In this document: positions 1,137 to 21,239 of the stretch, in pieces
Layout: every line of letters starts with the position of its first letter
Numbering within the stretch: the stretch's first letter is position 1
DNA from: a virus
IMG/VR virus record: IMGVR_UViG_3300032288_003215
Location: 1 to 21,361 of that record
DNA: 21,361 nt
Strand: one strand, 5' to 3'
Notes under the pieces: generated by a model
What the model was told of the DNA's origin: nothing
Databases searched by the model: none
What the model saw: the letters and a program-made list of their open reading frames with translations, nothing else
Position numbers and translations under genes: made by a program

Positions 1137-3216
1137 TTTTGTTGCGAATGATGCCCAATTAGCTGAAGTTGTTAATAGAGTACAAAATCGTCTTTCTACA
1201 TTACAAAAATTAATTTCTGAACTTCCAGATGGTGCTAAAGGATTAAATAAGTTAACAAGAGAATATGCAACTCAGTTAAATCAATTAACTAGGTTAACTA
1301 AAGCTCAACAAAACTTTAATCAAGCACTTAATCAAACTAATACTGGCACAGTTGTACAAAATAGTAAAGCAGCCAGAACTGCTTTAACTAATTTAAGTAT
1401 TGCAATACAAGATTTACCATTTGGTTTTATTGGTATTCAGAATAACTTGCCAGGAGTTATACAAGGATTTGGTAATTTAACAACTACTACAAATGGTAAA
1501 CTATTACCAGCATTAAAACAAATTGGTCAAGCACTTGTAGGACCAGCAGGTTTATTTTTAGCTTTTAGTGCAGTAACTTCTGGAGTTACATTTTTAGTAC
1601 AAAAATATGGAAGTCTTAGTGAGGCTTATGATGCTTTAATAAGAGGATCTAAAGTTTTAACTAAAGATCAAAAAGAATTTGCAAAAGGATTAGCTGAAGA
1701 AGCTAGTGATGTAGCAACACTTGTTGCATTATATCCTAAATTCGGAAATGATAGAGAAAAGCAAGTAGAGATAATACAAAAATTAAATCAATTATCTCCT
1801 ACATATTTCGGTAATTTAAAAGCTGAAAAAACTAGCATAGATGAAGTAACGCAGAGTTTAGATAAATATATTAATTCATTTATTGGTAAGATTTATATAG
1901 AATCTCAACAAAAAAGAATTAATGAATTATTTACTAAATATGCTGAGCAGATTACTAAGATAGTTGATCAAGAAGTTACAAGAAAGAAAAATGTTAAAGA
2001 GACAAAGAAAGAGATTGAGGGGTTAACACAAACAAATGAGCAATTATTTAAAAGTGTTGCTGAAAATGTTAAGAAAAATGTACCTGGTGATATTAAAGTT
2101 GGTATAACACCAGTAGTTACTAAAAAAACTGTACAAGAAGCAGTTGATCAATTAAAAGGTGAATTAAAATCTCAGCTTACTGGAGTATTTGGTGAAATTG
2201 ATGTGTTTAAGCAATTTATAAATTTAGATGATCAATTCAAAACAAAAGAGCCTGCAAAAATTAAAGAGGATGTAAGAGACTTAAAATTTGAGGTTAAAGA
2301 TTTAAGAAATGCTTTTGATTATGATACAATTATAGAAGAAGCATCAAAATTAGCTGGAATAATATTAGATCAACAACAAAAAATTAAAGATGGTGTTGTT
2401 GTATCTCAAAAATATACAAATACATTTTTAGAAAGAAATGCTGCATTAAAAGAATTGCAGCAAATAGCACCAGAAGTATTTGGTAATTTATCTTTAGAAA
2501 AAACTGGTTATGAGGATTTAGATGATGCGTTGTTTACATATATTAGAAAATTACAAATAGCTAGAGATGAAATTATAGCTAGAACAAATGCTGCTAAATT
2601 ACAAGCTCAAGCTGATAAAAATTCAGCCGATGCTTTACAAGAAGAAAATGAAGAGTTTGATAAGATTATACAAAAAATTAATGATCTTAATAATTTACTT
2701 CGTGATCCAAATGCTAAATCATTTAAATTTATAGAGCAGATAACTGTTCCATTGGCAAAATTGCAAAAAGAATTTCAAGGATTACAACTTGTCTTACAAA
2801 ATACATTTTTTGATCCTTTGACTAAATTATTTGAGAATTTCTTGACTACTGGAAGATTTACATTTGAAGAATTTACTAAAACCGTAATTACTTCAATTAA
2901 AAAAATGGCGGCTCAATTAATTGCAACTCAAATAATTAAAACTCTTGCACAAGTTTTAAATCCCATGGGATTTGCTGCATCAGTAGGGGTGCCTAGTGAA
3001 ATGGATAGTTTTAATTCATTGCAAAGAAGATTATATAACCAAAGAAATTTACAAGGATTTCAAGGATTGTTTGGAGGTGGTATTGCAGCCCCTAATATAA
3101 ATGGAATGACTGGAGCTGGATTAGCTTTAAGTGGAGGTGTAAGTTTAGTACTTAGAGGAAGTGATTTAGTTGGGTCTATAAATAGAACAAACGCACAAAT
3201 AAATAGAGTAGGATAA
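1111..3216 (+). CDS. Tail tape measure protein
   Basis: 701 residues. It sets tail length and sits in the tail lumen. At about 0.15 nm per residue it implies a tail near 105 nm, a short to medium siphovirus tail. The N-terminal 90 residues are a predicted coiled coil rich in Gln, Asn, Leu and Lys. Residues about 138-164 are hydrophobic and Gly-rich (VGPAGLFLAFSAV and following), the usual tape-measure membrane-active segment. Residues 200-640 are long charged helices. A segment around residue 233 (LSPTYFGNLKAEKTS) recurs 224 residues later (IAPEVFGNLSLEKTG). The start ATG lies inside the chaperone extension. Its size, position after the frameshift gene and composition make this call secure. 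Confidence 0.9.
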   Translation: MTKPELRIDFVANDAQLAEVVNRVQNRLSTLQKLISELPDGAKGLNKLTREYATQLNQLTRLTKAQQNFNQALNQTNTGTVVQNSKAARTALTNLSIAIQDLPFGFIGIQNNLPGVIQGFGNLTTTTNGKLLPALKQIGQALVGPAGLFLAFSAVTSGVTFLVQKYGSLSEAYDALIRGSKVLTKDQKEFAKGLAEEASDVATLVALYPKFGNDREKQVEIIQKLNQLSPTYFGNLKAEKTSIDEVTQSLDKYINSFIGKIYIESQQKRINELFTKYAEQITKIVDQEVTRKKNVKETKKEIEGLTQTNEQLFKSVAENVKKNVPGDIKVGITPVVTKKTVQEAVDQLKGELKSQLTGVFGEIDVFKQFINLDDQFKTKEPAKIKEDVRDLKFEVKDLRNAFDYDTIIEEASKLAGIILDQQQKIKDGVVVSQKYTNTFLERNAALKELQQIAPEVFGNLSLEKTGYEDLDDALFTYIRKLQIARDEIIARTNAAKLQAQADKNSADALQEENEEFDKIIQKINDLNNLLRDPNAKSFKFIEQITVPLAKLQKEFQGLQLVLQNTFFDPLTKLFENFLTTGRFTFEEFTKTVITSIKKMAAQLIATQIIKTLAQVLNPMGFAASVGVPSEMDSFNSLQRRLYNQRNLQGFQGLFGGGIAAPNINGMTGAGLALSGGVSLVLRGSDLVGSINRTNAQINRVG

Positions 3217-5225
3217 TGGCTTTAGCTTTAAAATATACTATGTCTTTCAAAACAACTGAAAATGTTGATTGTAAAGTTGAATTTCATATTGAAGGATATA
3301 GTGGAGATCCTATAACTATAAATGGTGCAGATAGCCCTTTTATACTTAGAGAATTTAATACAGAAGATAATATATTTAAGCCAGTAAGAGGACAACAAGC
3401 TGATATAAATATAATAGCTAGTTCATCTTTAAACATAGATGATTTTATAAGTAATTCAGATACATATTGTAAAATATATTTTTATTATTATAATATGATT
3501 ACACCATTTTGGGAAGGTTGGCTTTCTCAAGATGATTTACAACAAGAATGGACCAATCAAAATAAAGTAATACAATTAAAAGCCTCAGATGGTTTTGGAT
3601 ATTTAAAAAGCCAACCATATACAGATACTACTGGAGCTGAGGTAAGAGGTTTAAATACAATTTTTAAATATATATACGATTCACTATATAATACCTCTGC
3701 ATTTGATTCAAGAAGATTATATTTTATTAATAGTTTATTTAATGATGCAATAGATGATACATCATTATTAAGTCCATTAGCACAACTTTATTTAGATGCT
3801 AGGACATTTAGTATCGGAGATGGTGAATACGATGATAAATATACAGTTTTAGAAAAAATAAATACTGCATTTAATCAAACTGTATTTCAATACAATAATG
3901 GACTTTATACATTTAGATTAGAGGATATTTATTGCCCAACAAGTACAAATCTTAGAAGATATAGATACAATTCAATTGGTTTCCCAAATCAGTGGTCTTA
4001 TACAACTTCTAGGTATGATATTAATATAGGAGTCAACCAATCTATTAAGCCAATTGAGCCTAAGATGCTAAGAATGGTTAATAGAAATGTAAAGATGAAT
4101 GAAAATGACTTCTTTTATAATTATCCTACTGAATTTATAAGTAACCAAAATACTAAAAGAGGTACTTTAATAACATCCACTTCTACTTATAAAACATATA
4201 CAGTACAAGATTGGAGTTTTTTAACTGGTCCTTTAGCAACTCCATCAAATTCAACTGGAACAAAATATCGTAAAGATGAATTGGATGCTGATGGATATGT
4301 TACAGATTCATATATACAGGGTTTTTTAGGCACTGGCGAAACAGAGGTATATTGGAGAAATACACCAGCATGGGGTACAAAAAATGATGTAATTGATTTA
4401 TCATTTTTATGGAGTCCAAATGCAACAACTATATTTGCTGGTAATTTTATTGTTGGTTATGTATATTTAAAAGCCTCAAACACTTCTTATTATTTTTTAA
4501 ATGATAATGGAGATTGGCAGCCATATACATCTCCTGCTTTTGGAAGGCCTAGTTTAAATATAAAGGCCGATGACAATAGTACTTTTAAAACTGGAAGATA
4601 TATTGAGAAATCAGTATTAAGTAAGCCATTCCCAGATAACGGATGGGTTTATATTATACTATTTGGTCCAGCTAAGTTTTCTCAAATACAATTACGATAC
4701 CAAGCAGCCTTGGATAATATTACTACATCAAATATTGCTGGGTTCAAAGAAACATTTACTAAGTCAGAAGATATTAGACAAAATGATATTCAGCAAATAT
4801 ACCTATCTGATGTAAAAACAAATAATAACTTATTTGGGACTATATATTATAATGTTGGAACACCTGGTACTACATTTAATGAAAATACATTCCCAGAATG
4901 GTACCGATTAAGATATAACTCGGAGTCATTTAGCTTTTTGAGACAAAATCTAACGGCTAGATATAATTTCAACAAATTTAATCGTACAAAAATAGATGCA
5001 AACTTTTATGGTGTTGCAAATAATAATGTGCCGATAGGACTGCTGAATACATTTATTTTTACTGACGATGATCCTAACAAAATTTATTATCTTGCTAATC
5101 TGAAAGAGATGGATTTTGCAAATAATACTTGGAGTGGAACGCTGATTGAGGTATGGGACACATCAAGAGATACTGATACTGCAACTACTTATCCTACTTA
5201 CGCAAAAGATTTCTTATATAAATAA
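3216..5225 (+). CDS. Large distal tail or baseplate hub protein
   Basis: 669 residues. The ATG shares one base with the tape-measure stop (TAATG). The protein is rich in Tyr, Asn, Thr and aromatic residues and has no membrane segments or clear catalytic motif. The N-terminal ~130 residues (with PFWEGWLSQDDLQQEW at about 105-120) resemble the first domain of a family I associate with tails of Bacteroidota siphoviruses. Coming right after the tape measure, it occupies the place of Dit/Tal-type tail-tip proteins, which connect tube, fibres and host contact. The coding DNA from about 3216 to 4900 is noticeably more AT-rich than the genes on either side of 5228. The specific tail-tip role is inferred from gene order. 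Confidence 0.62.
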   Translation: MALALKYTMSFKTTENVDCKVEFHIEGYSGDPITINGADSPFILREFNTEDNIFKPVRGQQADINIIASSSLNIDDFISNSDTYCKIYFYYYNMITPFWEGWLSQDDLQQEWTNQNKVIQLKASDGFGYLKSQPYTDTTGAEVRGLNTIFKYIYDSLYNTSAFDSRRLYFINSLFNDAIDDTSLLSPLAQLYLDARTFSIGDGEYDDKYTVLEKINTAFNQTVFQYNNGLYTFRLEDIYCPTSTNLRRYRYNSIGFPNQWSYTTSRYDINIGVNQSIKPIEPKMLRMVNRNVKMNENDFFYNYPTEFISNQNTKRGTLITSTSTYKTYTVQDWSFLTGPLATPSNSTGTKYRKDELDADGYVTDSYIQGFLGTGETEVYWRNTPAWGTKNDVIDLSFLWSPNATTIFAGNFIVGYVYLKASNTSYYFLNDNGDWQPYTSPAFGRPSLNIKADDNSTFKTGRYIEKSVLSKPFPDNGWVYIILFGPAKFSQIQLRYQAALDNITTSNIAGFKETFTKSEDIRQNDIQQIYLSDVKTNNNLFGTIYYNVGTPGTTFNENTFPEWYRLRYNSESFSFLRQNLTARYNFNKFNRTKIDANFYGVANNNVPIGLLNTFIFTDDDPNKIYYLANLKEMDFANNTWSGTLIEVWDTSRDTDTATTYPTYAKDFLYK

Positions 5226-19869: not shown

Positions 19870-20087
19870 TACTAGAACTTAGAAATAAAATCCCAGTCCA
19901 TACTCCGCATGGCTATGGAGATGCAATGTTTATCATTGATTATGGGCTGGAGATAAATAGCGTGTGGGTTGTGCGACTTAAAGGAGGAGATGTTAAGCAT
20001 TACTACTCCGATGATATAAGGATGTACGACAACCCTATGAACGGAAATAAATTTGATATTGAAATACCTAAAACTTGGAAAAAATGA
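19866..20087 (+). CDS. Small hypothetical protein, TTG start
   Basis: 73 residues from TTG at 19866, which overlaps the upstream stop as TTGA. The pattern HTPHGYGDAMFIIDYGLEINSVWVVRLKGGDVKHYYSDDIRMYDN reads as a small five-stranded beta protein of SH3-like character, with a G-x-G-x-A loop and a final short helix. Similar small phage proteins are common but uncharacterised. It overlaps the methyltransferase start by four bases (ATGA at 20084). TTG as a coupled start also occurs at 12223, which supports the choice. Confidence 0.6.
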   Translation: MILELRNKIPVHTPHGYGDAMFIIDYGLEINSVWVVRLKGGDVKHYYSDDIRMYDNPMNGNKFDIEIPKTWKK

Positions 20088-21001
20088 CTCATGGCTCTTT
20101 ATTTTCGGGTATTGGGGGCTTTGACTTAGCGGCAGAGTGGATGGGATGGGAGAATATATTTCATTGCGAATGGAATCCATTCGGACAAAAAGTATTAAAG
20201 TATTATTGGCCTAACGCATTTAGTTATGAGAACATATGTACAACAGACTTTACAATTCACAGAGAAAAAGTTGACATCATCACCGGTGGATTCCCATGCC
20301 AACCATACTCACTCGCAGGAAAGCGACTCGGCAAAGAGGATGAGCGCCATCTGTGGCCAGAAATGCTTAGAACAATTCGAGAAGTTCAACCACGTTGGGT
20401 CGTGGGCGAAAATGTTTTCGGCCTTGTTAATTGGTCAGGAGGGTTGGTATTCCACGAAGTGCAAGCTGACTTGGAAGCTGAAGGGTACGAAGTACAACCG
20501 TACATACTTCCAGCTGTTTCCGTCAACGCCCCACACCGAAGAGACCGAGTCTGGTTTGTTGCCCACGCCAATAACTGGGGATGGAATGAGGGGAATAAAT
20601 GGGAACACAACAACACTAGAGAATGGGAAATTTGTAAGGACATCCAAAACAACGGGAACAAAATTCGGAGCGACATTGGGTATGGCAGCAGCAAAGGGAT
20701 TACTTCCAACACCGAAAGCTCAGGATTGTCGTCATGCTTTGAGGGACAGAGGCAAGAGCAATTTAGGAGAGGAAATTTCAGAAATGAATTACCAAATAAC
20801 TGGGAAAACTTCCCAACTGTCTCCCCAGTTTGTAATGGAGATGATGGGCTTTCCGAGCGATTGGACGCTATTACCTTTCCTAAATGGAGAGCCGAGTCAG
20901 TAAAAGCAGGAGGCAACGCAATAGTACCACAAGTAGCTTATCAAATTTTTAAAACTATACAAGCATATGAGAGAAGCAGAATTGCAAAAGAAGATCGTTG
21001 A
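20084..21001 (+). CDS. DNA cytosine-5 methyltransferase
   Basis: 305 residues from ATG 20084, which overlaps the preceding stop as ATGA; a TTG three codons upstream is less likely. C5 motifs: I (LFSGIGGFD, 5-13), IV (GGFPCQPYS with catalytic Cys72), VI (GENVFGL, 108-114), VIII (PHRRDRVWFVA, 150-160) and X (AGGNAIVPQVAYQIF, near the end). It transfers a methyl group from S-adenosylmethionine to cytosine, probably to protect phage DNA from host restriction. No partner endonuclease is seen. The region between VIII and X is low in conserved motifs and is also open in a second frame (20226-20903). It overlaps the VRR-NUC gene by 35 bases. Confidence 0.9.
   Translation: MTHGSLFSGIGGFDLAAEWMGWENIFHCEWNPFGQKVLKYYWPNAFSYENICTTDFTIHREKVDIITGGFPCQPYSLAGKRLGKEDERHLWPEMLRTIREVQPRWVVGENVFGLVNWSGGLVFHEVQADLEAEGYEVQPYILPAVSVNAPHRRDRVWFVAHANNWGWNEGNKWEHNNTREWEICKDIQNNGNKIRSDIGYGSSKGITSNTESSGLSSCFEGQRQEQFRRGNFRNELPNNWENFPTVSPVCNGDDGLSERLDAITFPKWRAESVKAGGNAIVPQVAYQIFKTIQAYERSRIAKEDR
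20226..20903 (+). CDS. Overlapping open frame inside the methyltransferase
   Basis: 225 codons from ATG 20226 to TAA 20901-20903, in another frame of the methyltransferase gene. The product includes CKLTWKLKGTKYNRTYFQL, ETESGLLPTPITGDG, KGLLPTPKAQD and LSPQFVMEMMGFPSDWTLL. From memory, proteins with LLPTP and FVxEMMGFPxxWT patterns are repeatedly annotated in phages, often with cytosine methyltransferases. The same bases encode methyltransferase motif VIII (RRDRVWFVAHA) in one frame and TEETESGLLPTP in the other. It may be a true dual-coding gene or a family created by out-of-frame gene calls. An in-frame TAA at 20196 lies upstream. Confidence 0.35.
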   Translation: MRTYVQQTLQFTEKKLTSSPVDSHANHTHSQESDSAKRMSAICGQKCLEQFEKFNHVGSWAKMFSALLIGQEGWYSTKCKLTWKLKGTKYNRTYFQLFPSTPHTEETESGLLPTPITGDGMRGINGNTTTLENGKFVRTSKTTGTKFGATLGMAAAKGLLPTPKAQDCRHALRDRGKSNLGEEISEMNYQITGKTSQLSPQFVMEMMGFPSDWTLLPFLNGEPSQ

Positions 21002-21239
21002 TAGACTAAATAGACATGGATGGAGTTGTATAAAGCTCATCCAAACCAATATGAATGGCATACCAGACTTAATGTGCATACGAAAAGGAGTGGTCATGTT
21101 CCTAGAAGTAAAAACAGAGAAAGGAGTAGTTGCACCACTGCAAGAGAAAAGAATAGCTGATCTGAATAAGCACGGAGTATTTGCAAGAGTAGTAAGATCG
21201 CTGGATGATATTGATATATACTGTTATAAGAACATTTAA
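20967..21239 (+). CDS. VRR-NUC domain nuclease
   Basis: 90 residues. The pattern AELQKKIVDRLNRHGW, then GIPDLMCIRKG (Asp34), FLEVKTEKG (Glu47, Lys49) and PLQEKRIADLNKHGVFARVV (Gln59) is the compact VRR-NUC fold of the PD-(D/E)XK superfamily. Stand-alone phage members are thought to cut branched DNA such as Holliday junctions or flaps. It starts inside the methyltransferase gene and is followed two bases later by the primase start. It probably resolves replication or recombination intermediates together with the helicase and RecB-like nuclease upstream. Confidence 0.85.
   Translation: MREAELQKKIVDRLNRHGWSCIKLIQTNMNGIPDLMCIRKGVVMFLEVKTEKGVVAPLQEKRIADLNKHGVFARVVRSLDDIDIYCYKNI

Follow-up and report, generated by a model that had tools for sequence, protein, structure and literature searches.

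The small chain of the C5 cytosine DNA methyltransferase (MTase) M.EcoHK31I starts inside the gene of the large chain, in another reading frame. M.EcoHK31I (YGGCCR) is a two-polypeptide enzyme in which the large chain carries motifs I-VIII and X together with a predicted target-recognition domain (TRD), and motif IX is located on the small chain (PMC3404938). According to the title of Lee, Kam and Shaw (1995), cited in PMC3404938, both polypeptides are needed for methylation. Out-of-frame coding within phage methylases has also been described for ShiLan, where the out-of-frame HNH insertion is a mobile HNH homing element (PMC11855218). In the open-access literature that was searched, no description was found of the overlap reported here or of its +1 protein family.

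The window analysed is a virus record of 21,361 bases. It holds an MTase gene (frame 0) within which a second gene is nested in the +1 frame, and the motifs of the enzyme are divided between the two. The parts of this gene pair, with the evidence for each in brackets, are the following:

20084..21001, + strand: C5 cytosine DNA methyltransferase, frame 0, 305 aa (PF00145, TIGR00675, phrog_363, sequence)
20226..20903, + strand: overlapping +1 gene nested in the MTase gene, ATG start, 225 aa, assigned to the PHROG_1008 family (profile match, constraint, stop depletion); proposed chain of TRD plus motif IX
20294..20302, + strand: MTase motif IV PCQ with the catalytic Cys, frame 0 (sequence)
20340..20342, + strand: conserved Met of the +1 product, in K-x-M-T-A-T-S-G; alternative start (alignment, survey of starts and Shine-Dalgarno sites, constraint profile)
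20463..20525, + strand: predicted beta hairpin KLTWKLKGTKYNRTYFQLFPS, +1 frame (AlphaFold2)
20531..20563, + strand: MTase motif VIII PHRRDRVWFVA, frame 0; the +1 reading of this DNA is PTEETESGLLP (sequence)
20556..20570, + strand: first LLPTP, +1 frame (sequence)
20700..20714, + strand: second LLPTP, +1 frame (sequence)
20817..20864, + strand: motif IX LSPQFVMEMMGFPSDW, +1 frame (sequence, alignment, motif IX comparisons)
20909..20932, + strand: MTase motif X GGNAIVPQ, frame 0 (sequence)

The frame-0 protein matches PF00145 with an E value of 5.9e-42, in a match confined to residues 4-190, and it also matches TIGR00675 and phrog_363. Its start is most likely ATG 20084 (MTHGSLFSGIGG), which forms an ATGA overlap with the preceding ORF; an in-frame TTG at 20075 is offered by the ORF list as another start. 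Motifs I, IV, VI, VIII and X can all be read in this chain, and the canonical motif IX is absent from it and sits in the +1 frame at 20817-20864. An earlier note on this DNA had drawn attention to the 225-codon frame, to its repeated LLPTP and its MMGFPxxWT pattern, and to the DNA that it shares with motif VIII. All of this could be confirmed: the frame at 20226-20903 lies on the + strand, begins with ATG, is in +1 relative to the MTase and encodes 225 aa, its product contains LLPTP twice and MMGFPSDWT once, and the DNA of motif VIII (PHRRDRVWFVAHA) gives PTEETESGLLPTP in the +1 frame. A VRR-NUC type nuclease gene (20967-21239) shares 35 bases with the 3' end of the MTase gene, in another frame. 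The remaining genes of the window include tail, helicase, exonuclease, HNH and VRR-NUC type proteins, and a 669-aa ORF at 3216-5225 gave no PHROG match.

In a first set of 90 homologues, 80 of which were fetched with the MTase protein alone and the others of which were phages retrieved by means of the +1 protein, an open +1 frame was present in 90/90, with runs of 174-379 codons. The depletion of stops is specific to this frame, the +2 frame having a median of 25 stops in the homologues and 24 in the window. When synonymous codons of the window MTase were permuted, a +1 run this long appeared in 1 of 20,000 permutations. For 72 genes with 500 permutations each, a run as long was obtained in 50/36,000, and in 0/500 for 61 of the 72 genes; over all groups, 277 of 315 genes gave an equally long +1 run in at most 10 of 200 permutations. 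Moreover, the overlap was found in loci of bacterial genomes as well, e.g. Pedobacter, Flavobacterium, Dyadobacter and Rufibacter. We consider the +1 frame to be, almost certainly, genuine dual coding and thus a conserved overlapping gene. One locus, L289, was the sole member of the frame survey with a +1 stop between motifs VIII and IX. It had also been cautioned that a 176-codon minus-strand frame spans the region. This frame does exist (20386-20916), but it was rejected as a rival coding frame, since no family matched it and homologues do not consistently have long minus frames, the medians of their longest minus-frame runs being 86, 92 and 48 codons.

Selection on the two frames was followed in 128 independent gene pairs, using alignments built on frame 0, a choice whose bias runs against the swap of constraint reported here. 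The 5' non-overlapping part shows differences of 0.11/0.06/0.36 at codon positions 1/2/3 and a four-fold synonymous change of 0.40, and the 3' non-overlapping part resembles it (0.41). Inside the overlap, four-fold change falls to 0.17-0.18, being 0.18 over the 40 codons that lead up to motif VIII and 0.169 in the variable (TRD) region, where the corresponding value for the +1 frame is 0.318 and where codon position 1, the wobble position of the +1 frame, varies most (0.349). Along the gene, synonymous change is about 0.46 far upstream, and it drops to 0.12-0.20 in the roughly 60 codons nearest to motif VIII. The pattern repeats in five sets (Bacteroidota-type, Bacillota-type, actinophage-type, podophage-type and Kagunavirus-type), except that position 3 lies slightly above position 1 in the podophage-type set. 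In the TRD, dN/dS is 0.87 [0.81-0.92] for frame 0 and 0.51 [0.45-0.57] for +1; outside the overlap it is 0.08-0.10 for frame 0 and 1.2-1.6 for +1. The frames exchange roles in the variable, target-recognition region, with +1 being more constrained there than frame 0.

The motifs of the +1 frame are themselves in excess. PTP motifs beyond motif VIII number 486 in +1, compared with about 29 after codon permutation and 0 in +2. For the codon test at motif IX, loci were picked by the frame-0 motif X only, since picking them by the +1 pattern would be circular, and this anchor retained only 16 of the 81 loci in the window's own group. Among the loci so picked, third positions across motif IX are almost fixed (e.g. 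GTG 35/36, GAC 39/40 and CCC 36/36 in the podophage-type group), and codons past the +1 stop vary freely.

As for the nature of the +1 product, that of the window matches phrog_1008 with an E value of 2e-25, and the products of every other group tested match PHROG_1008 at 6.8e-22 to 5.2e-74. The +1 products are one homologous family, PHROG_1008. The product had no match in Pfam, NCBIfam or PADLOC, and no HNH family among the PHROGs. Its conserved parts are an N-terminal region (with a Met that is often conserved), a hairpin-like segment, LLPTP/WPTP repeats, whose number differs between homologues in the alignment, and a C-terminal LNPxFVEWMMGFPxGW, which is the canonical C5-MTase motif IX. With a strict pattern applied to 402 loci, motif IX was located to the open +1 frame in 275 loci and to frame 0 in 32, lay after a stop in 1 and was missed in 94; with a looser pattern it was found in frame 0 in 53 MTases. 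These 32-53 MTases are mostly actinophage-type, and motif IX there directly precedes motif X. In fact, LLPTP repeats, IX and X are all read in frame 0 in five actinophage-type MTases (L111, L116, L148, L177 and L179), and another of this type (L117) matches PF00145 over 1 to 320 of 324 in a single stretch. A genome scan with L111 gave no relative. When a profile of the actinophage-type in-frame IX-X region was compared with the PDB, 6 of 7 matches were DRM C5-MTases at the IX-X region, with marginal E values of 0.09-0.9; a PDB search with the +1 profile returned nothing real. AlphaFold2 predicted a hairpin in the window's +1 chain (strands 80-87 and 93-100) and the same hairpin in the compact homologue L261 (strands 68-76 and 82-89), with a mean pLDDT of 83-88 for those blocks. 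No TRD fold is established for the +1 chain, because the AlphaFold2 models of the chain are weak (mean pLDDT 57 and 62) and Foldseek found no match with them.

Internal initiation of the +1 frame is supported by the sequences around its starts. Shine-Dalgarno sites at the +1 starts are enriched over codon permutation in four groups, with 0.51 vs 0.10 permuted in the Bacillota-type and 0.36 vs 0 in the actinophage group. The start ATG is fixed 65 codons before motif VIII in 64 of 70 actinophage-type genes, and the likely start ATG of this group falls in the same motif (M-[SN]-D-T-S-G) as the window's conserved Met at 20340..20342. In the window itself, Shine-Dalgarno sites at the starts are poor, save for an internal ATG at 20412, and the Bacteroidota-type group to which it belongs showed no enrichment over permutation in the survey of starts. 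In Bacteroidota hosts a lack of Shine-Dalgarno enrichment is expected, and so would it be for the window's group if its host is a Bacteroidota.

Different arrangements of the two frames occur naturally. In mycobacteriophage Bora (L091, 1472-2474), frame 0 terminates directly behind motif VIII, and LLPTP, IX and X are found on the +1 chain; the two genes annotated there as 'DNA methylase' amount to a split enzyme, with gp6 ending after VIII and gp5 having LLPTP/IX/X. In L196, L258, L259, L321, L322 and L292, the MTase-frame ORF enters LLPTP and/or motif IX and ends without motif X, and these loci look as though a small indel had fused both frames; since L258 and L259 belong to separate metagenome contigs, their fusion at least is unlikely to be an assembly error. 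A Bacteroides finegoldii plasmid (L428, 1347-2463) has frame-0 stops after VIII and before X, with the +1 frame intact over 353 codons. In Komagataeibacter phage phiKX2 (L101, ~1760-2875), an inserted segment similar to the ShiLan element (PMC11855218) lies ahead of motif X in the MTase gene; it is open in the frame of the MTase and codes, out of frame, for an HNH-like protein. L317, too, has additional sequence in about this location.

Overlapping coding, a single homologous family, motifs split between the frames and the swap of constraint in the TRD are shown by the analysis. From these we infer that both chains are translated and pair, that the +1 chain has a recognition role and that the enzyme serves a protective purpose; probably, then, the product is a two-chain enzyme whose catalytic domain comes from frame 0 and whose recognition domain comes from +1. 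Frame 0 would give the large catalytic domain of a C5 DNA methyltransferase (I-VIII and X), loosely constrained over the stretch that usually holds the TRD. The +1 frame, from its internal start, would supply the other chain, containing a beta hairpin, LLPTP repeats in varying number and the canonical motif IX, and corresponding to the small DNA-recognition domain. Both chains would pair to form one active enzyme that methylates the phage DNA, which probably protects it against host restriction. The +1 chain is read as a recognition domain because of motif IX and the constraint swap. The two-chain model also fits the natural variants, namely the five MTases with LLPTP, IX and X in frame 0 and the split in Bora.

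The earlier note had suggested that the +1 frame, if real, perhaps encodes an accessory or anti-restriction protein. We regard a separate protein of this kind, acting outside the methyltransferase, as unlikely. A role of its own for part of the chain is indicated by actinophage-type genes in which motif IX, and even the LLPTP repeats, are read in the MTase frame and in which a shorter +1 ORF, made of the hairpin region and one LLPTP, is nevertheless retained; therefore the +1 chain does more than carry motif IX, and its N-terminal part has a further role. However, motif IX and the LLPTP repeats occur fused into MTase chains, motifs IX and X lie on the +1 chain of Bora, and no copy of the family was found away from an MTase in 44 whole records of phages and contigs, where it occupies one place per record. 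Motif IX and the swap of constraint point instead to the enzyme's own recognition domain. Ribosomal frameshifting, by which the +1 segment would be joined to the MTase in a longer alternative chain with no separate subunit, is very improbable. More than 180 codons are open simultaneously in both frames, making a shift possible, and fused forms are known where an indel joins the frames (L196, L258, L259), yet a product with VIII, IX and X would require two opposite shifts, the +1 starts show the Shine-Dalgarno enrichment and the fixed ATG described above, and synonymous constraint begins far upstream of VIII.

Between a true overlapping pair and a widespread gene-calling artefact, the choice that the earlier note had posed, the pair is favoured by synonymous constraint and by the +1-specific depletion of stops and excess of motifs. 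It is true that the MTase sequence partly dictates the LLPTP adjoining motif VIII, and that all the LLPTP proteins examined belong to MTase genes, which agrees in part with an outcome that had been put forward as a sign of artefact. The mapping stands, but not that reading of it, because the two proteins are encoded together, as the constraint shows. That the +1 frame is a non-functional by-product of MTase codon usage was rejected by the permutation and constraint tests, is contradicted further by the dN/dS reversal in the TRD and the PTP excess, and has hardly any credibility left.

The breadth of the arrangement was judged from loci opened from searches with +1 proteins. Phages with the overlap were found for hosts among the Bacteroidota (Bacteroides, Porphyromonas), Bacillota (Paenibacillus, Lacticaseibacillus), Actinomycetota (Mycobacterium, Gordonia), Pseudomonadota (Escherichia, Pseudomonas, Vibrio, Xanthomonas, Salmonella, Komagataeibacter) and Cyanobacteriota (Synechococcus, Microcystis). 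The arrangement spans phages of at least five bacterial phyla and is mostly unrecognised so far. We lean towards the view that, across these phyla, a single gene carries in overlapping frames both structural domains of an enzyme, that recognition evolves in +1 where the catalytic frame merely traverses, and that LLPTP and motif IX segments have moved between the frames. If this is true, it would be a very widespread and old nested gene pair of tailed phages, as well as a large natural data set of dual coding in which the domains of an enzyme are cleanly split and the more strongly selected frame changes along the gene. In annotations, a phage C5-MTase often figures as one complete enzyme, and assays often express a single frame of it; should the recognition domain lie on the nested +1 chain, one-frame clones and predictions lack half of the enzyme. 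Likewise, gene callers that forbid nesting would lose one of two proteins, and the specificity of the MTase would have to be sought in the +1 frame.

Among existing records, PHROG_1008 is labelled only 'DNA methyltransferase', with the out-of-frame nesting unstated. The same +1 ORF inside an MTase gene is found as gp56 of Paenibacillus phage Shelly ('g55 internal gene') and as ORF28 of Escherichia phage K1H ('Mte8-like'), both isolated annotations that give no function and do not recognise a family. ShiLan likewise has an out-of-frame ORF within a phage methylase gene; unlike it, the +1 ORF of the window has no HNH and is not an insertion. M.AquI alpha/beta is a natural split C5-MTase to which the split in Bora is similar (I-VIII, then IX-X on a second chain), whereas the window keeps motif X on the first chain and its second gene is nested out of frame. 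The likeness to M.EcoHK31I, compared by motif layout alone, is that in the window, too, motifs I-VIII and X are on one chain and IX is on another. M.EcoHK31I is described as a bacterial restriction-modification enzyme, and the overlap genes described here are largely from phages; moreover, its predicted TRD is on the large chain, whereas here the variable region is constrained in +1, with LLPTP repeats. With motif IX on its second polypeptide, M.EcoHK31I is the precedent for reading the gene pair as a two-chain enzyme.
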